35,581 nucleotides of DNA from Actinomycetota bacterium. GTDB taxonomy: Bacteria; Actinomycetota; Actinomycetes; S36-B12; UBA5976. Shown one piece after another: positions 1 through 9,629 of this stretch. Under the pieces are notes generated by a model. That model saw only the letters and a program-made list of their open reading frames with translations. It made no database searches and had not been told where the DNA came from. Location: the NCBI GenBank assembly GCA_009885745.1, contig VFKC01000043.1, positions 1 to 35,581 on the forward strand, given 5' to 3'. The position numbers were made by a program, and so were the translations under genes. Each line of letters opens with the position of its first letter. The stretch's first letter is position 1.

Positions 1-1003
1 ATTCACCGCGCTTAGTTTCTAGCGCTAGTTCTAATAATTCCCGATCAGCTATCCAGTCATTGCGCAAAACACCCGTGAGATGTCCGGTGTATTCAAGACC
101 CTCAAAAAGTTTGTATGCCTTCATCGGACTAATAAGGTCAAAATATGAAAAAACTACATGTCGGGACTTTTCTTTTTCGAGTTCATACAGGCATCGAGCT
201 CGATTTATCAGACCCTGCTCGTAGGCGGCTAATTTCACTGCAATTCGCATTCCAGCCACCTTGTTTGTTATCACTCGGTTGAAAAATTCCCACGAGATGG
301 TTTCAGTAACAATTGTTTCCGCCCGCTGTCGAGCAGTGCCCCTACCAGCCTTTTGTCGGTTAAACAGGACATCTTCAAGCCGCTTTTTTGCTGCATTTTG
401 TACTTCTTCTGCGATGTGATGATTGTTTGAAATAGCCTCGATCACTTGCATTGAGGAGTCCTTCAACATTGATTCTCCAAGCACATCTGTAAGGTTTCGA
501 TGTTGAGCAATTGCCACTCGAATCCAAAATTGGTCATCAGCTATTCCATTTGCCAACACAGTCGAAGGAGTTCGCGGATTGGTGAATGCGGCGCCGCGGA
601 CACGGGGTGATTCATGTTTTGATAGTTCCTCTAGCAGGACAATTGAGGTCCGACGACTCTGCGCGATTCTAGGCAAAATCTCCACAGTTGCGTTCACAGC
701 AATCGCATCGACGATTTCTTCATTCGCATGACGGTGGCTTAATACATATTCTGGATGTGCCTTTAACTCAATCATCAGGTACGGGCGCGTATCCTTCATC
801 GATAAATTCTTATTTATCAATGCGCTCATTCTTACTTGCCCACTGGAATCCTGGGCAAGTGTCAAAAGAGTATCAACAGAAGTGCTCAGATTTCTTGCCA
901 CTGCTAGGCGTACATCTAGGTTTTTGCAGGTTGCAAGTTGGGCTAAGCGTTCAGGGGAAGTGCTGAAACTTCGCGCCTGTAATGATTCATTTGATTGACT
1001 CAA
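1..1003 (-). CDS. LRV/HEAT-like repeat protein (partial, runs off the left edge)
   Basis: Reverse strand reads open from TTG at 1003-1001 (upstream GGGAG) as MSQSNESLQARSFSTSPERLAQLATCKNLDVRLAVARNLSTSVDTLLTLAQDSSGQVRMSALINKN... with repeated 'VR..vA.N..t....L..L' units. Absent from the ORF track, probably because it has no stop inside the window. Confidence 0.75.
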   Translation of the reverse strand, partial: MSQSNESLQARSFSTSPERLAQLATCKNLDVRLAVARNLSTSVDTLLTLAQDSSGQVRMSALINKNLSMKDTRPYLMIELKAHPEYVLSHRHANEEIVDAIAVNATVEILPRIAQSRRTSIVLLEELSKHESPRVRGAAFTNPRTPSTVLANGIADDQFWIRVAIAQHRNLTDVLGESMLKDSSMQVIEAISNNHHIAEEVQNAAKKRLEDVLFNRQKAGRGTARQRAETIVTETISWEFFNRVITNKVAGMRIAVKLAAYEQGLINRARCLYELEKEKSRHVVFSYFDLISPMKAYKLFEGLEYTGHLTGVLRNDWIADRELLELALETKRGE

Positions 1004-1069
1004 TTTTGCTCCCGACTCGATTACCAACCATTATTGCTAAGACGTCTGACAGAGTCTTCCTTCTGAACC

Positions 1070-1098
1070 ACGTTGCACATTCTCTCTGCGTGCAACGT
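1070..1098. promoter_or_regulatory. Perfect 9-bp inverted repeat ACGTTGCAC-N11-GTGCAACGT, candidate operator
   Basis: Arms at 1070-1078 and 1090-1098, centre-to-centre 20 bp, inside the divergent intergenic region between the LRV gene (start 1003) and the MoxR gene (start about 1180). Confidence 0.6.
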
Positions 1099-1179
1099 CC
1101 TTTTACCAGAGATTGTCGTAGCCAAGTCGTACACTCATATTCCGACCTGCATACTGAGAAAAAATTCCGAGGGAAACAA

Positions 1180-2301
1180 ATGCTTTCTACTGATGACTAC
1201 AGAGATACCTACCTAGCACTAAATCTGTGCATTAGTGCGCGCGTACCAGTGATTCTGTGGGGCCCTCCCGGGCAAGGTAAGACTTCAGTAATTCAGGCCA
1301 TTGCCCAACAGGAAAAGCGCACAATCGAAGTGCTGCTTGCCAGCATCCGGGAGCCTCAGGATTTTGCTGGGCTGCCTTCGATCACAAATGGTCGTGCAAC
1401 GCTAGTAGCCCCCGATTGGGCTCAGCGACTTGCAGAAGATGGCAATGGAATCCTGTTCATGGATGAAGTAAACACTGCGCCCCCTGCCGTCCAAGCAGCT
1501 TTGCTTCGAGTGAGCTTGGACAAAGTTGCTGGCGATTGTCATTTAGGTGAGCGCACTAGCATTGTCGCCGCAGCAAACCCACCTGAGCAAGCAGCGGATG
1601 GCTGGGATCTAGCCCCGCCTCTAGCAAATAGATTTTGTCATCTGGAGTGGTCCTTGCCGGCAGAGATTGTACGAAATGGCATAGCTGGACAGTGGCCCTC
1701 TTACACAATTCCCCCCGTTAGCAACAAAGCCATTGCAGCGGCCATCGATATGGAACGCGTATATGTGGGTGGCTTTTTGACAACTCGACCAGATCTAACA
1801 ACAGTTTTGCCATCAGGTAGTTCTGAGCAGGGCCGAGCATTTCCAACGCCCCGTTCCTGGGTAACGCTGTCACAAGTAAGTGCTTGGGTGACGGCTGCTG
1901 GACTGAGTGAGAGTGTCCGGCGCATGGTTGTCCGAGGATGCATTGGACCTGGCGCTAGTGCCGAGTACCTCACGTATAGAAATAATCTAGATCTACCGCG
2001 ACCTGAAGACTTGCTGGCCAAGACAACTTTTAAGGTGCCCAAGCGCGCGGATCAGGTTTTCGTGATGGGAGCAGGTGTCCTTAATGCAATCCGAAACGAC
2101 AATTCACCGCAAAGATGGGATGCCGCGGGTGAAGTACTCGAATGCCTGGCAACAAACGGCCATCCGGACATTGCGGTTAGCCTAGCTCGCGAATGGCTTG
2201 ACCTTATTCCTAAATCCAAAGATCCGAACAATCCGATTTTGCCTAATCCCCTAGTCATGACAGCGCTTGTTCCTTTGATGCTCGAAGCAAAAATGATTTA
2301 A
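1180..2301 (+). CDS. MoxR-family AAA+ ATPase
   Basis: Walker A GPPGQGKTS, Walker B-like ILFMDEVN, AANPPEQ sensor region. ATG at 1180 preceded by GAGGGAAACAA, so the ORF-track start at 982 is probably too early. Confidence 0.85.
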   Translation: MLSTDDYRDTYLALNLCISARVPVILWGPPGQGKTSVIQAIAQQEKRTIEVLLASIREPQDFAGLPSITNGRATLVAPDWAQRLAEDGNGILFMDEVNTAPPAVQAALLRVSLDKVAGDCHLGERTSIVAAANPPEQAADGWDLAPPLANRFCHLEWSLPAEIVRNGIAGQWPSYTIPPVSNKAIAAAIDMERVYVGGFLTTRPDLTTVLPSGSSEQGRAFPTPRSWVTLSQVSAWVTAAGLSESVRRMVVRGCIGPGASAEYLTYRNNLDLPRPEDLLAKTTFKVPKRADQVFVMGAGVLNAIRNDNSPQRWDAAGEVLECLATNGHPDIAVSLAREWLDLIPKSKDPNNPILPNPLVMTALVPLMLEAKMI

Positions 2302-3647
2302 TGACGGAATCATCAGGCACCAAAACGGCTAATCTCTCTGGAGTCCAAGATCCGAGCGAACATGCGCGCTTGAAGGTGTTGGCTTCACGCATTACGTTGG
2401 AAAATAACTGGCCATACCTTGCCTCAATAGCTTTTGCTCTTCGCCTAGTTGAGACCTCATCAGAAGATTTACCCACAATGGCTGTCGATAACGGATTACG
2501 GTTGTACTACAACGTGGATTTTGTTGAATCTCTCGAGCCAGAAGAACTCGCCACAGTGCTGCTACATGAGTGTATGCATGTAATTTTGCGACATGGCGAC
2601 AGATACGCTGAACTACAAAATGCTGGGTACTACGAACAGTTTTCAAGTGCTCCTGCTTACCACAGGCTGATTTGGAACTACGCGGGAGATTGCAGTATCA
2701 ATGAGACCTTGGACGAGATGGATGTCATCTGGCCCAAATCGTCGCCTCCACTTCGCTATTCCCTTTTCCGCAAAGCTGGCCTGACAGCCAAAGACATAAC
2801 CGAAACTTCCTTCTTCAAAATTCTGGAATGGGATAAAGAATATTTAGCCACTGGAAATCCTCAAGATTCAAAATTGAATCTACCTTGCGATTGTGGCTCC
2901 ATCTCAGATGGAGAAAATCGGGGATTTGAAATCCCTGTTGATGATGAAGATGCCCCTGGCGCAGACAATCTAGAACGAGATCGACTCAGAGACAAAGTAG
3001 CAAGTGACATAACTCAGCATGCAAGTACTGGAAGCATCCCAAAGGGACTCGAAAGGTGGGCACAAGCACATCTGGATCCGAAGATTGACTGGCGTCGCCA
3101 ACTTGCAGTTCGCATTAGACAAGCGGTAGCGAACGTTACTGGGCGACGCGACTACTCATACATGAGACCATCTCGTCGCCAAGATGCGATCCGCGCGACT
3201 GGAAGTTCAGTAATTTTGCCGGCGATGCGACAGCCAGCTCCCCCACGAATTGCAATAGTCGCTGACACAAGTGGCAGCATCAGCAACAACGATCTAAATC
3301 AATTTCTAGCGGAGATCAAGGGTATGCTGAACGCTGTCGGCATAGGTCAGGGGATGTCAATAATCCCTTGCGATGCAAAGGCTTATCCAGCAATCAAGAT
3401 CCGGTCACGCTCTTCAATCATCGACATCAATTTCCAAGGTGGCGGCGGGACAAACATGATTTCGGGTATCGATGCAGCCATGAGCATGCGACCCTTACCT
3501 CAAATCGTCATAATTCTCACTGACGGCTACACCCCCTGGCCCGAGGCCAAGCCGAAGGGCTGCGATCATTTTATTGCTGCCCTCACGGACGAAAAAACTA
3601 AGCAATCGCTTCCACATTGGATTACGGCTGTTTCACTAGCCGACTAG
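2301..3647 (+). CDS. DUF2201-type putative metallopeptidase with C-terminal VWA-like domain
   Basis: HECMH (HExxH) zinc motif near the N-terminus; MIDAS-like DTSGSIS and later GGGGTN / LTDG motifs. Start overlaps the MoxR stop. Confidence 0.85.
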   Translation: MTESSGTKTANLSGVQDPSEHARLKVLASRITLENNWPYLASIAFALRLVETSSEDLPTMAVDNGLRLYYNVDFVESLEPEELATVLLHECMHVILRHGDRYAELQNAGYYEQFSSAPAYHRLIWNYAGDCSINETLDEMDVIWPKSSPPLRYSLFRKAGLTAKDITETSFFKILEWDKEYLATGNPQDSKLNLPCDCGSISDGENRGFEIPVDDEDAPGADNLERDRLRDKVASDITQHASTGSIPKGLERWAQAHLDPKIDWRRQLAVRIRQAVANVTGRRDYSYMRPSRRQDAIRATGSSVILPAMRQPAPPRIAIVADTSGSISNNDLNQFLAEIKGMLNAVGIGQGMSIIPCDAKAYPAIKIRSRSSIIDINFQGGGGTNMISGIDAAMSMRPLPQIVIILTDGYTPWPEAKPKGCDHFIAALTDEKTKQSLPHWITAVSLAD

Positions 3648-3657
3648 TGAAATAGCC
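3626..3657. terminator. Stem-loop between convergent genes
   Basis: GGCTGTTTCACTA-gccgac-TAGTGAAATAGCC: 13-bp stem with one G-U, overlapping the VWA-gene stop codon and ending before the convergent LRV gene stop at 3671. No strong U-tract. Confidence 0.55.
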
Positions 3658-3670
3658 ATATGGGTTTGTT

Positions 3671-4996
3671 CTAGGTAGCTCTTCGCTTAACTGTCTTTAG
3701 TCTCAACTTTGCAATTGCGCGATACGGCGCCGGTGCGAACATGTTTTCCAAAACGGCTGTTCTTACTTCATCATCGCTGTCATTTGCCAGAATATTCCAA
3801 TCATTTTCTGAAGCATTAGATTCGCATAGATTCGCAAATGTTTTGCGAACTAAGGGTGACGGGTCCAGAGTTATTTTCTCGATGACAGCCCTGTCCTGGC
3901 ACACCTTTGAAACTCTTCGGACCAGCGCAACTCTAACCTCAACATTTTTGGACTTTAGGATCGCTTGGCATTGATCCAACGGAGTGTTAAAACTAACCGC
4001 GGCATACATCAGCGGATCCACGGGATTTGAGAGCTTTGGCAAACCTGCAACATTAGCTAATGACCCAATGACTAGATCAAATGGCGCTGTAACATCCGAT
4101 GCCAAGTACAGCCATTCAAGGTCATGCGATTTTTTCGAGTCAGACAGATAATCCATTAGTTCTCCTCGATCCTGCGGGAGTTCTATTGCCTTGGGAGACA
4201 AAATCGGATGGACGGTTGCATCCAATTCCACTTCATGCACAACCGGGGCATGCAAAAGTTGGCGCAAAGAAGGAGTAAGGGTTGGATTATTTCGCAGGGC
4301 CAAGTGCACCCACCGACTTTCATCCTTAGCCAACCTGCGCAGGATTCGCGCTGAAGTTCTGGGATTACCTGCAACATTTCGCCGAACACCTTCATCGCCG
4401 TCCGAGGCTAACTCGCCGAGTCGGGCAATCGAAAGACGAGTGCTAGCTGCACAGGCCTTACGCACAGAGAAATGTTCATCAAAAGAGAGTCTTTCTAGTT
4501 CCTCAATTGGTAGGGAATCATTACTCGCAATGACTCGGCGAGTGTCATTGTTGGCGGAATAGGCCAAGGCTCTGATGATGTCTGGTGGCAGGGCAGTATT
4601 TTGAGCAACAGCTACTTGAACATCGTATTCATCATCCTGGCGAAAAAACTCAACTTTTTCTTCGATGGACTGCGCGGATCCCAACTCAACAACTTCTGGG
4701 TCTCGCCATTCTTTATTCAGAATCATCATTACTAACGTGTGGACTGGCGTCATAGGGTTGCATGCCACGCCAAGTCGAACCTTGGCGTTCACATCATTAG
4801 AAAGGTACGTCAAAATCTGAGCTGGACAACTATGGTTGGCGGCGAGAAGACGACGCAATTCGTCATTTTCGGATGTTGAAATAACATCTGCCAATGTGAC
4901 TTGACGCGAATCAATCGTGGAAAGATTCCCTGCTTCCATCGGGCTATCCCTAACGATGTCTGACTTCTTGCCTTTTCTCACGCTATCCCTCGCCAA
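3671..4996 (-). CDS. LRV (leucine-rich repeat variant)/HEAT-like repeat protein
   Basis: 441-aa ORF with repeats such as NAKVRLGVACNPMTPVHTLV, DEGVRRNVAGNPRTSARILRRLA, RWVHLALRNNPTLTPSLRQLL. Start uncertain (TTG 4996 or internal ATG 4939). Confidence 0.8.
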   Translation of the reverse strand: MARDSVRKGKKSDIVRDSPMEAGNLSTIDSRQVTLADVISTSENDELRRLLAANHSCPAQILTYLSNDVNAKVRLGVACNPMTPVHTLVMMILNKEWRDPEVVELGSAQSIEEKVEFFRQDDEYDVQVAVAQNTALPPDIIRALAYSANNDTRRVIASNDSLPIEELERLSFDEHFSVRKACAASTRLSIARLGELASDGDEGVRRNVAGNPRTSARILRRLAKDESRWVHLALRNNPTLTPSLRQLLHAPVVHEVELDATVHPILSPKAIELPQDRGELMDYLSDSKKSHDLEWLYLASDVTAPFDLVIGSLANVAGLPKLSNPVDPLMYAAVSFNTPLDQCQAILKSKNVEVRVALVRRVSKVCQDRAVIEKITLDPSPLVRKTFANLCESNASENDWNILANDSDDEVRTAVLENMFAPAPYRAIAKLRLKTVKRRAT

Positions 4997-5329
4997 ACTT
5001 AAGAATTAATCAACGTCTCATTGATGAATCATTGGATTTTTACTGGTAAATTCCGTTTTCCTATTATGGCTTTGCGCTAAGACAGATTCATTCGCAACAC
5101 TTCGCAAGGCTCCCAATATTGTCCGGAATACGCTCAAGGCGCAATTTGATAACGACTCGCCCACACGATCTGGCTTACCAAAAAAATGTCCCACCTTGGG
5201 TGTAGATTTTCATGTCCCACCAGATTCATAAATGCAACAAAGCTGGCAGATTTTTGGACCGTTTTTCGAACCATATCTGTCTGTAATTCCCCATCTATGA
5301 GTACGAATAATGCGAAGTGAAGGAAAATC

Positions 5330-6919
5330 ATGAGTGACGAGCACAGCAAATCAGATCAAGAACTTTGGGATGACCTTGAGGGGACCAATGGTTTTGAACG
5401 AGCGATGATTCTCATGCACCTCCAATCCCACAAAGCCCATGCTGGGCAATTCGACAAGTGTCTTGCAATCACCCTGGAAGCTGCCGACCTATTCCTCGCC
5501 AGTGGGCGTCAGCGCGAATATGCAGACGCTTTGATGCGCATCGGTCATTGCCATGCCAGTCTGGGCAATAACGAGGATGCCTTAACCCATTTGATGAAAG
5601 CTCGGGACATAGCCGAGTTACATTCCGAGGGCGATGAAATAGCCATGGTTGAGGATTTTCTGGCCCAATCACTCATCGAAAATGGGCAATATGAACAAGC
5701 AATCACTCATTTTGATGCAGCTGAACGACTCTGGGAGGCTGAAAGCAATAGCGAAGGCGCTGCTGCTTCTGCCTGCGCTAGGTCTTCTCTGCACCTCCAA
5801 AGAGGTCAATATTCCCTTGCTTTAGCTGCTCTTGATCGAGCAAATGATTACCTTTGCGGATCGCACGACATGTATCGTTTTGTTGATATCGAGAGGCGCA
5901 TCTCTACAGTTCATTTACGAAATGACAATCCGGATGCCGCAGTATTTCATGCCCGAAAGGCAATATCTCTAGCCAAAAATTGTGCTTGTCCGAATTGCCT
6001 GCCCCAGGCCAAACTGTCGATGGGCATTGCGCTATCCCGAACGCATGCGCGTGATGAAGCGCGCGAATATCTCAACACCGCTAGGAAGGCATTTCATGAA
6101 GCCAACAAACCTGCATGGGAAGCCAGAGCCAAGGCAATCCTGGGACGGATGCTTATTGAAGAGGGTTCAAGTTCGGCCTGGGAAATCATTGATGAATGCC
6201 ACACTGTTTTTGAGAAATTAGGCTGGGGATTAGCCCTTGGCTGCATGCTAGAACTTCTCGCAAAAAATGCCATAAATAGCGCTGATTACTTCCTCGCAGA
6301 AGAATATTTAGATGCTGCGATTGCTCTTGTTCATCAAGAGGGAGACATCGCGTACGCGAATGAATTTATCCTGACCCTTACCAAAGTCGAACTCATGAAA
6401 TCCCAACCAAGCGACGCTTTGAAATGTCTAGAGCGACTTGACACTTCTGAGGAATTTTCGCAAAAGAAGCGCCTAGAAATTCTAGAAGTACGAGTTCGGT
6501 CACTGATTGGCTTGTCTCGATTGGGTGAGGCGGGCAAGTTGCTGCGAGCTGAATTATCAACCCTGCCGCTTGGCTGCCTTCCGGAGTTGGAGGCTCCGCT
6601 CAGGGAGCTTATGGCTGAGACTTTAACTCCCGTGGACACTAACGCAGCAATGCGTGAAAACATGAAGGCAATCAGGCTTTATTTGGCGATTGGAAACACT
6701 GAATACGCAGGGATTTTGGCGGCAAGAGACTTCGACCCAAAGAAATCCACCTCCAATAGATTGCAGGAATTTGAGGATAATCCTCTGGCGTTTGAAGATG
6801 ACGATGATTCCTCACTGAATAACCCCATCAATGACGAGGTGCAAGAAGCAAAACTTTTGCTGGACTCAAAAGATGATTTCGGATTGCGATCTAAAGATGA
6901 CGACGAGGGTGTCGCATAA
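5330..6919 (+). CDS. TPR-repeat protein with acidic C-terminal tail
   Basis: 529 aa with tandem TPR-like helices (YADALMRIGHCHASLGNNEDALTHLMKARDIAE; GQYEQAITHFDAAERLWE). RBS GAAGGAAAATC before ATG. Confidence 0.8.
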   Translation: MSDEHSKSDQELWDDLEGTNGFERAMILMHLQSHKAHAGQFDKCLAITLEAADLFLASGRQREYADALMRIGHCHASLGNNEDALTHLMKARDIAELHSEGDEIAMVEDFLAQSLIENGQYEQAITHFDAAERLWEAESNSEGAAASACARSSLHLQRGQYSLALAALDRANDYLCGSHDMYRFVDIERRISTVHLRNDNPDAAVFHARKAISLAKNCACPNCLPQAKLSMGIALSRTHARDEAREYLNTARKAFHEANKPAWEARAKAILGRMLIEEGSSSAWEIIDECHTVFEKLGWGLALGCMLELLAKNAINSADYFLAEEYLDAAIALVHQEGDIAYANEFILTLTKVELMKSQPSDALKCLERLDTSEEFSQKKRLEILEVRVRSLIGLSRLGEAGKLLRAELSTLPLGCLPELEAPLRELMAETLTPVDTNAAMRENMKAIRLYLAIGNTEYAGILAARDFDPKKSTSNRLQEFEDNPLAFEDDDDSSLNNPINDEVQEAKLLLDSKDDFGLRSKDDDEGVA

Positions 6920-6954: not shown

Positions 6955-7007
6955 CATCGGGATTCGAAAAGTTAGTCAGTACAAATATGTCCGACCTCAC
7001 CTGCACA

Positions 7008-7023
7008 ATGTCATACATGACAT
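7008..7023. promoter_or_regulatory. Inverted repeat ATGTCA-TACA-TGACAT just upstream of the riboswitch
   Basis: Two 6-bp perfect arms with 4-nt spacer, ending 5 bp before the aptamer P1. Confidence 0.4.
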
Positions 7024-7028
7024 AACAA

Positions 7029-7111
7029 GGATTCAGAAAGTAGCGCTAAGCCCCTCGGCTAGCTACTCGGCAACCGCGCAAATCGCGCACGGTGCCCCCA
7101 AGGGAAAATCC
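7029..7111 (+). promoter_or_regulatory. SAM-I/SAM-IV clan riboswitch (SAM-IV or SAM-I/IV-variant-like)
   Basis: P1 GGATT(7029-)/AATCC(-7111); P2 AGTAGC/GCTACT enclosing loop GCTAAGCCCCTCGGCTA; conserved CGGCAACC; hairpin GCGC-aaatc-GCGC; then CGGTGCCCC and AGGG able to pair with loop CCCT (pseudoknot). Matches the recalled SAM-IV layout AAGCCCCGGCU..GCUGGCCGGCAACC..GGUGCCCCGGGUGA. Confidence 0.8.
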
Positions 7112-7143
7112 GCCCAAACATTGGGAAGAGCGAAAGGCAAAAG

Positions 7144-7815
7144 TTGAGTAATCCGAATATTTTAGACAACCTCGAAAATGACGCATGCTTTCAAGAAAAG
7201 ATCAAAATTTACAACTTAAGCGAAAGTTTTGATCGCGAGCAAGAGTCACAAAAATTCACGCAAAAATTTGAAGTGTGGTCAGTGCAACCTGGAATTGACG
7301 TTGCCAAAGCCAGATTCACTGGCACTGAGATTGATTTATGTGTGATCTGCGCACGCGCTCTAGTCTCCGCCGGTAAATCCATGACCTCAATAGCTTGTGT
7401 TTTCTGCCAATTATGGGATTGCCTACTGGGCTATGCCATTGGTGAATCTGAGTTTCTTGGACTCACGCGAACTGCTTTAGGTTTACATGAATACCCGCCT
7501 GCCCAGTTCTCACCCTTAGCCCAACAGGCTCAAATTGATGGAATTGGTTCCATAATCAATTCTTGGCTCACCCTCTACTATTGGCAGGCCAATGAAATCT
7601 CTATTTTGATTCAAGACGCAGGTTGGGAACATCAAGGATTAATCACTTTGAGCGACTGGACGGACGAATACCCGGAGAATGCCCTGACTTCACTTGAGGC
7701 ATACATTCGGCTAATTGAAGATCAACACCCATGGGCAATTTATCTGTGCCCTGAATCGATGAATTTGAGTTGGTACTATGACCAACTTCCACAATCCAAA
7801 GAGCGTGTGGAATAA
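7144..7815 (+). CDS. Uncharacterised 223-aa protein downstream of the SAM-type riboswitch
   Basis: TTG start about 32 nt after the aptamer, preceded by GAAAGGCAAAAG; two CxxC motifs (CVIC, CVFC). No family recognised. Followed by a terminator. Confidence 0.65.
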   Translation: MSNPNILDNLENDACFQEKIKIYNLSESFDREQESQKFTQKFEVWSVQPGIDVAKARFTGTEIDLCVICARALVSAGKSMTSIACVFCQLWDCLLGYAIGESEFLGLTRTALGLHEYPPAQFSPLAQQAQIDGIGSIINSWLTLYYWQANEISILIQDAGWEHQGLITLSDWTDEYPENALTSLEAYIRLIEDQHPWAIYLCPESMNLSWYYDQLPQSKERVE

Positions 7816-7859
7816 CGTATCTCTCCATTTCCCTATTTACTGAGAGTCTTTGTTGCAAT

Positions 7860-7893
7860 AAAAAAGTGGAACCCATGTGGGTCCCACTTTTTT
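7860..7893. terminator. Bidirectional intrinsic terminator
   Basis: AAAAAAGTGGaACCC-atgt-GGGTcCCACTTTTTT between the + orphan gene and the - rho gene. Confidence 0.9.
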
Positions 7894-7904
7894 AATACCG
7901 AAAT

Positions 7905-9629
7905 TTAATCGACATTATCCTCATCGGAGGCAAAGCCACTAGGGGCTTCTGGGGTCGTCTTTTGAACTTGCATCAGGAATTCGTAGTTGCTCTTAGTGTT
8001 GCGCAACTTGGTCAAAAGTAGTTCAAGACCCTGTTGGGAATCAAGGGCATGAAGTACGCGACGCAACTTCCAAATAACTTTTAACTCATCTGGAGCCATC
8101 AAGATTTCTTCACGTCGAGTTCCAGAAGCCTCAATGTCAACCGCCGGGAAAATCCGTCGATCCGCTAAACGGCGATCCAACTTGAGTTCCATGTTGCCAG
8201 TTCCCTTGAACTCTTCGAAAATGACTTCATCCATTCGAGAGCCAGTCTCAACCAAAGCAGTTGCCAAGATTGTTAAGGATCCACCCTCTTCGATGTTGCG
8301 GGCAGCGCCGAAGAATTTTTTCGGTGGATACAAAGCCGCAGAGTCAACACCACCGGAAAGGATTCGGCCAGATGCAGGTGCAGCTAAGTTGTACGCACGA
8401 CCCAATCGAGTCATTGAATCCAAAAGCACCACAACATCATGACCCATTTCCACCAATCGCTTTGCGCGTTCAATTGCTAATTCAGCAATAGTCGTGTGGT
8501 CTTCTGCTGGTCGATCAAAAGTAGAAGCAATAACTTCACCCTTGACTGAACGCTGCATGTCGGTTACTTCTTCTGGACGCTCATCGACAAGAACGACCAT
8601 CAAATGGACCTCTGGATTATTTTCCACAATCGCATTAGCAATATTTTGCAGAATCATTGTCTTTCCGGCCTTTGGCGGGGAAACGATAAGTCCGCGCTGT
8701 CCCTTACCAATTGGCGCAACAAGATCGATTACTCGAGTTACCAAATTGTTTGGTGCAGTTTCAAGACGTAAGCGCTCTTGCGGATACAGCGGAGTTAGTT
8801 TGCTGAAATCAACACGATTACGCAACTCGTCAGGCTCTAGCCCGTTGATCGATTCGATTCGCACAAGTGGATTGAATTTCTGCGGACGATCGCCTTCGCG
8901 CGGCTGCTTAACTTGTCCTGTGACGGCGTCACCTTTACGCAGGTTAAACCGCTTAACAAGGCCCATGGAAACGTAAACATCATTCGATCCTGGCAAATAT
9001 CCTGAAGTGCGAACGAAGGCATAGTTGTCCAGAATGTCGATGATGCCAGCAACTGGCAATAACACGTCATCTTCGGTGACCTCTAGGTCATACTCGCCGG
9101 CCCCACGATTGCCGCGATCGCGATTTCGTGGATTGCGGTCATTTCTATCACGACGATCGTTGCGATCATTGCGATCGCGCCTATTGCCACGGTCGTTTCG
9201 GTCTCCGCGTTCACGGCGAGAACCTTCGCTGGCTTCAGATGAATTGTCGCCGTTATCAGAATCAGTACGAGTTGATGTACGAGCCTCATCGCTAGATTCA
9301 GCATCCGATCCACCGCGATTATTGCGATTACGATTGCGATTATTACGCTCAGGGCGCTCGCCACGGTCATCGTTTCGGGCTGGACGTTCGCCACGCTCTG
9401 ATGCGGTGTCTTTGGTCTCTTGATCCGCTTCTACGTTCTTGGCCGCTCCTGCAGCACGAGTTGCACTACGTCGTGGACGCCCTGCCCCCTGCTTTGCGCC
9501 AATCGCAGAAACTAGATCAGCTTTACGCATTGTTGATGCGCCTTCAATTCCAAGTCCAGCAGCCATGGCTTTTAGTTCTGGCAGGAGTTTGGTACTTAGC
9601 CCTTTGTCTGGGGCAATTGCTTCGGTCAC
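7905..9629 (-). CDS. rho: Transcription termination factor Rho (actinobacterial form with R/N/D-rich insert)
   Basis: GLIVSPPKAGKTMILQNIANAI, VVLLDSMTRLGRAYN, SGGVDSAALYPPKKFFGAARNIEEGGSLTI; low-complexity RNDRNDRRDRNDRN insert. Confidence 0.98.
   Translation of the reverse strand: MTEAIAPDKGLSTKLLPELKAMAAGLGIEGASTMRKADLVSAIGAKQGAGRPRRSATRAAGAAKNVEADQETKDTASERGERPARNDDRGERPERNNRNRNRNNRGGSDAESSDEARTSTRTDSDNGDNSSEASEGSRRERGDRNDRGNRRDRNDRNDRRDRNDRNPRNRDRGNRGAGEYDLEVTEDDVLLPVAGIIDILDNYAFVRTSGYLPGSNDVYVSMGLVKRFNLRKGDAVTGQVKQPREGDRPQKFNPLVRIESINGLEPDELRNRVDFSKLTPLYPQERLRLETAPNNLVTRVIDLVAPIGKGQRGLIVSPPKAGKTMILQNIANAIVENNPEVHLMVVLVDERPEEVTDMQRSVKGEVIASTFDRPAEDHTTIAELAIERAKRLVEMGHDVVVLLDSMTRLGRAYNLAAPASGRILSGGVDSAALYPPKKFFGAARNIEEGGSLTILATALVETGSRMDEVIFEEFKGTGNMELKLDRRLADRRIFPAVDIEASGTRREEILMAPDELKVIWKLRRVLHALDSQQGLELLLTKLRNTKSNYEFLMQVQKTTPEAPSGFASDEDNVD

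Follow-up and report, generated by a model that had tools for sequence, protein, structure and literature searches.

A SAM-IV riboswitch sub-group, joined to a DNA-damage-type promoter motif, as a probable OFF switch for non-methionine genes in actinobacteria

Actinobacteria probably devote a distinct sub-group of SAM-IV riboswitches to sporadically distributed genes outside methionine metabolism. In the 35,581-nt stretch of DNA analysed here (the window, which makes up contig C46 in its entirety; the actinobacterial genome that it belongs to measures 1.45 Mb), a member of this sub-group, placed behind a damage-type promoter motif, probably acts as a SAM OFF switch on a 223-aa protein, P0001. 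The aptamer class is already known; the group of SAM-controlled genes that it marks beyond methionine metabolism is apparently undescribed.

Results

A SAM-IV aptamer runs into the Shine-Dalgarno sequence of P0001

An Rfam scan of the window returned a single riboswitch, a forward-strand match to RF00634 (SAM-IV) at 7030-7136 (57.1 bits, E 1e-7, gathering score 38). An earlier, sequence-only reading of this DNA had placed the element in the SAM-I/SAM-IV clan and proposed a covariance-model search; the match is significant and narrows the class to SAM-IV, SAM-I identity being ruled out by the Rfam assignment. The elements which that reading had listed are all found in the sequence. P1 (7029-7111, forward strand) pairs GGATT 7029-7033 with AATCC 7107-7111 and encloses P2 (AGTAGC 7039-7044 with GCTACT 7062-7067), P3 and a pseudoknot between CCCT 7052-7055 in the P2 loop and AGGG 7101-7104, and CGGCAACC, the GCGC hairpin and CGGTGCCCC are likewise present.

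At its 3' end the aptamer carries a tail (7130-7137, forward strand) whose GCGA is complementary to UCGC 7083-7086 in the P3 loop. Across 48 leaders this loop-tail complementarity averages 4.96, compared with 4.30 +/- 0.14 when partners are shuffled, and it amounts to only 4 bp in the window. The Shine-Dalgarno sequence AAAGG (7133-7137) directly abuts this last paired tail, with a TTG start 6 nt downstream. A search of the window leader for terminator-like sites gave none, and control is therefore most likely translational.

The direction of the switch is less firmly fixed than its position. In the unconstrained minimum-free-energy fold of the leader P1 does not form, and GGATT pairs instead with AATCC of codons 3-4. 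This competing fold is the main reason why an ON switch is retained as a rival, and it could reverse the sign: without SAM, GGATT 7029-7033 would pair with these codons and block the start, which a SAM-driven P1 would release. A related leader (G031) also retains the coding-region AATCC despite a wobble-rich P1. However, the fold calculation ignores pseudoknots and ligand, complementary codons are not evident in the other leaders inspected by eye, and in every group inspected the Shine-Dalgarno sequence lies right against the tail that the ligand stabilises. We therefore infer an OFF switch, and consider the ON arrangement quite improbable.

The aptamer belongs to a covarying sub-group with a conserved SAM pocket

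The modest Rfam score of the window copy, only 57 bits, reflects a model that mirrors the methionine-gene form of the riboswitch. A sub-group model, R1, was built from 15 leaders, the window's included. Over 166 genomes it gave the window 113.4 bits and the R1 leaders scores of 70-118 bits, whereas no methionine-type leader exceeded 67.7 bits; several further leaders that bear the promoter motif described below score beneath the 70-118 bit range.

More than 60 SAM-IV aptamers make up this sub-group, with strong covariation that extends to the pseudoknot. Among 63 aligned leaders, in an alignment that had been fitted to the structure, 93.4% of cells are paired and 20 of 25 pairs change on both sides, a level reached by none of 500 shuffles. 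An independent MAFFT alignment of 15 leaders gave 91.2% of cells paired and both-side changes in 20 of 30 pairs. In these 15 sequences P1 is paired in 100% of cells and the P2-loop/J3 pseudoknot in 93%, each with changes on both sides. Covariation thus supports P1-P4 and this pseudoknot in the sub-group leaders.

Published SAM-I, SAM-I/IV and SAM-IV riboswitches have a common pocket, whose residues at 5 A or less from SAM have been listed (PMC6890682). Those of the listed residues that fall outside covarying pairs (U3, G7, A8, CAAC and UG) show no variation in any of the 62 leaders compared, which argues for SAM as the ligand. A SAM-IV-derived aptamer might nevertheless have come to sense SAH or another nucleotide that suits its new targets. 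The absence of a methionine role among these targets would fit such a change, as would the separate model cluster formed by the sub-group and the altered J1/2 position 5 of the window, which neighbours the SAM pocket and is C there and A in 51 of the 62 leaders. Set against the complete invariance of the pocket residues, and a pocket shared by all three published classes, a change of ligand appears improbable.

A damage-type promoter motif precedes the sub-group aptamers

Upstream of the aptamer, on the forward strand at 6988-7009, lies a candidate promoter, TGTCCGAC-N8-CACAAT. Its counterparts across the sub-group take the form TGTC(A)G-N10-(T)AnnnT, which resembles, in sequence and spacing, the mycobacterial RecA-independent DNA-damage promoter (RecA-NDp; consensus tTGTCRgtg-8 nt-TannnT, PMC5656591) that is bound by PafBC (PMC8223512, PMC5656591). 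The window copy fits the mycobacterial consensus only loosely, with C for R and CAnnnT for TAnnnT. A relaxed form of the motif occurs within 60 nt upstream of 45 of 57 sub-group leaders (0.69 expected from shuffling), related leaders among the 57 not being independent and the motif recurring in several orders, and before none of 37 methionine-type leaders (0.35 expected). Twelve of the 57 lack the relaxed pattern, and 17 carry the strict consensus. The distance from motif to aptamer is 28-30 nt in most leaders and 41-42 nt in four, the window among them, and with the motif at this fixed distance the transcript is expected to start at the aptamer or a little ahead of it.

Whether PafBC itself acts here is a separate matter. 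The upstream motif may instead serve another activator or sigma factor, with no link to DNA damage. The GTG of the consensus is often missing, most copies reading TGTCAG(A/C/G), and matches to the strict consensus show no genome-wide enrichment (17, compared with 15 for a reversed-pattern control). On the other side, the TGTC, the 8-nt spacing and the TAnnnT do fit the published consensus, exact matches stand before the leaders of G273 (TGTCAGTG-N8-TATCTT) and G024 (TGTCAGTG-N8-TAAGTT), and the window genome encodes an adjacent pair of PafB/PafC-like WYL proteins. Upstream of a DUF222-HNH gene in the same genome (G000:C127:146020, L093) the consensus is present in full, as TGTCAGTG-N8-TATGTT. 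Given the unenriched strict pattern and the loose window copy, we infer PafBC as the activator from promoter likeness and gene content, and judge a different factor unlikely, while giving it more weight than either the ON switch or the change of ligand. A RecA-NDp-like consensus was also seen upstream of a dGTPase-like gene (G000:C30:42766, L079).

Between the -10 element and the aptamer, at 7009-7022, lies an inverted repeat, TGTCATACATGACA (TGTCAT-AC-ATGACA), with a near-copy in G031 only; it is a possible operator.

P0001 relatives found by protein alone keep SAM-IV upstream

P0001 is encoded on the forward strand at 7144-7815 from the TTG start. As the sequence-only reading had it, the protein resists assignment: no family in Pfam, NCBIfam, PHROGs or PADLOC matches it, and with no family match it does not supply the riboswitch with a downstream gene of methionine/SAM synthesis, transport or recycling. 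A terminator near 7860 had been taken to close a unit of this one gene, and a bidirectional terminator-like hairpin at 7859-7894 (17-nt inverted repeat, 94% complementary, with a T-run at both ends) does separate the reading frame from the convergent rho (7905-9629, reverse strand).

Among the 43 genomes of the window genome's own family, P0001 occurs in one other species only, where the protein is 82% identical and its gene again neighbours rho and follows a SAM-IV element. Searching with a profile of two sequences brought up remote relatives in G120, G123 and G154, which belong to another family of the order; each of the three has a SAM-IV match directly upstream. With a nine-member profile, 8 of the 166 genomes from the order proved to have relatives, as did 9 of 395 sampled from the class, both counts including the window genome; the other eight of the latter come from other orders and played no part in building the profile. 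These distant relatives are about 20% identical to P0001 and share its LCxxC...CxxC.

The relatives were identified by whole-genome protein profile alone, blind to RNA, so that an association with SAM-IV was not built into the new matches, and their loci were then scanned for SAM-IV with the sub-group model and Rfam. In 16 genomes besides the window's, every full-length relative belongs to an operon with SAM-IV at its head, and in G017 a second relative gene follows the first in one operon. The only relative without SAM-IV upstream is a 55-aa fragment (G154:C100).

This pattern decides between the two origins that the sequence-only reading had left side by side when it proposed looking for co-occurrence in related genomes. 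Its first option, a new member of the SAM regulon with no evident methionine role, is borne out by relatives that keep SAM-IV upstream across the class. Its second was that the riboswitch had lost its original target on the arrival of the accessory cluster beside rho and become an orphan; in the form considered here, an unrelated accessory gene would have taken the place of a methionine gene. In its favour stand the variability of that spot between relatives and the low Rfam score of the window copy beside the 96.6 bits of a metY-type copy in the same genome. It is contradicted by the SAM-IV elements upstream of relatives in other families and orders, which mean that the window aptamer was not displaced. 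The promoter motif and the aptamer sub-group moreover travel together, and aptamer structure and pocket are under selection. We reject the displaced orphan on the co-occurrence of protein and aptamer, and accord it only a very slight probability.

The 19 members of the family (A5) have an invariant L-C-C-C-C, and the LCxxC...CxxC of P0001 suggests a zinc ribbon; the protein may thus bind zinc, and it may have a role in stress or genome integrity. The predicted structure of P0001 itself is poor (pLDDT 52) and that of a relative good (pLDDT 79, pTM 0.79); a Foldseek search of PDB and BFVD with the relative's model returned nothing at E<=0.001. Fold assignment through sequence was rejected as well, the matches to solved structures being at chance level. 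A phage or plasmid origin was likewise rejected, as tblastn gave no match for two relatives and P0001 has none in IMG/VR. Nor did the PADLOC anti-phage defence models match P0001, two relatives or the HD fusion.

Sister leaders and genomic setting

The promoter motif at 6988-7009, a cut-off second copy of the leader and the further target families had no place in the sequence-only reading. Behind the sister leaders stand small proteins that contain a helical module of about 30 residues (DD-SI-FA-VW or MT-EE-WA-LH), usually fused to, or followed by, an HD_4 (SpoT-like) hydrolase. A second small protein family stands behind sub-group leaders in G120, G152 and G154. A histone-deacetylase-like target lies directly behind the leader in G009 and is the third gene in G063 (L120, L104), and in G122 and G123 (L070, L118) a CxCG zinc-type protein and then a D12 adenine-specific DNA methylase follow SAM-IV. 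The target groups are linked into one module by G273, where the MT-EE-WA module (E 3.8e-4) and a P0001 relative form a single protein, with an HD_4 gene next in line. Wherever the genes behind the 37 methionine-type comparison leaders were recognised, they were metY/OAHS, SAM synthetase or ABC-binding-protein genes. In G011:C10 (L054 1609-1730) the gene directly behind a SAM-IV match of 53.9 bits encodes a WhiB-type regulator that has an additional helix-turn-helix.

Elsewhere the window genome holds a typical SAM-IV element (96.6 bits), which precedes an O-acetylhomoserine-sulfhydrylase-type (metY-type) gene, and another, low-scoring one on contig C37. At the end of C37 (L036 4549-4665) stands the cut-off second copy of the window leader, which has exactly 99 nt in common with window 6981-7079. 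It lies behind a UPF0114 membrane-protein gene, with an upstream flank that differs from the window's, and 18 further upstream bases match a relative and not the window, which makes it a second copy or a strain variant. At the end of another contig, G031:C164 (L038 1-143), the leader and the first ~30 codons are conserved and the protein then diverges, which suggests a diversified paralogue or allele.

Upstream of the P0001 unit, window 982-6919 holds an accessory-looking run of genes for a MoxR-type AAA ATPase, a DUF2201/VWA protein, an LRV/HEAT-repeat protein and a TPR protein, on which PADLOC gave weak generic AAA matches only. The spot downstream of rho varies among relatives (L150-L167): P0001 occupies it in two species, while in G035 it holds a VapBC-like pair and a small protein led by SAM-IV, in G037 an HNH gene of DUF222-like type, and elsewhere other genes.

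Discussion

We propose the following course of events for the OFF switch that we favour. A promoter of the PafBC form, responsive to DNA damage independently of RecA, would start transcription at the 5' end of the aptamer or just ahead of it. When SAM is plentiful it would bind the aptamer, the 3' tail would pair with the P3 loop, and the adjacent Shine-Dalgarno sequence would be hidden, leaving P0001 untranslated; when SAM is scarce the Shine-Dalgarno sequence would open. P0001 would accordingly be made when activity of the damage-type promoter meets a low SAM level, that is, when damage and SAM shortage coincide.

A more ambitious proposal, which we offer tentatively and hold to be rather unlikely, is that damage promoter and OFF switch form a two-input gate that expresses a genome-integrity or anti-phage module only while DNA is being damaged and SAM runs out. 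With the same reserve, the module might comprise the zinc-ribbon protein, the HD_4 nucleotide hydrolase, the helical adaptor peptides and the adenine methylase. Were the gate real, SAM, which is needed for DNA methylation, might be depleted by phage, for example, or by failed restriction-modification.

In the literature searched, and among our comparison leaders, SAM-IV stands before genes of methionine and sulphur metabolism. The existence of a conserved sub-group that goes with a damage-type promoter and with unassigned proteins suggests that actinobacteria read the SAM level as a stress signal. The P0001 family, which carries no annotation of any kind, gains a testable functional handle in the cue pair of mitomycin C and methionine limitation. 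In the open literature searched, we found no description of a SAM-IV sub-group with this promoter and these targets, nor a damage-type promoter directly followed by a SAM riboswitch.

Compared with SAM-IV as modelled in RF00634, the sub-group has the same P1-P4, both pseudoknots, the pocket residues, the translational layout and an actinobacterial host; it differs in its non-methionine targets, its damage-type promoter, its distinct model and a P3 that is mostly GCC/GGC (41 of 62 leaders) instead of GGC/GCC, which the window keeps. Metagenomic SAM-I/SAM-IV variants, described by structure (PMC2864571), belong to the same superfamily and share the pocket, and are set apart by lacking the P2 internal loop. 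With the mycobacterial RecA-NDp/PafBC promoter the sub-group has in common TGTC(R), the 8-nt spacer and TAnnnT, and the window genome has a PafB/PafC-like pair and the same motif before a DUF222-HNH gene; unlike that promoter it often lacks the GTG, and a SAM riboswitch follows at once. Finally, the sister operons resemble SpoT/MESH1-type HD_4 systems (PF13328) in encoding an HD_4 protein, in one case (G273) immediately after a P0001 relative, whereas here the predicted hydrolase is short, stands alone and is tied to a 30-aa helical module and to SAM-IV.
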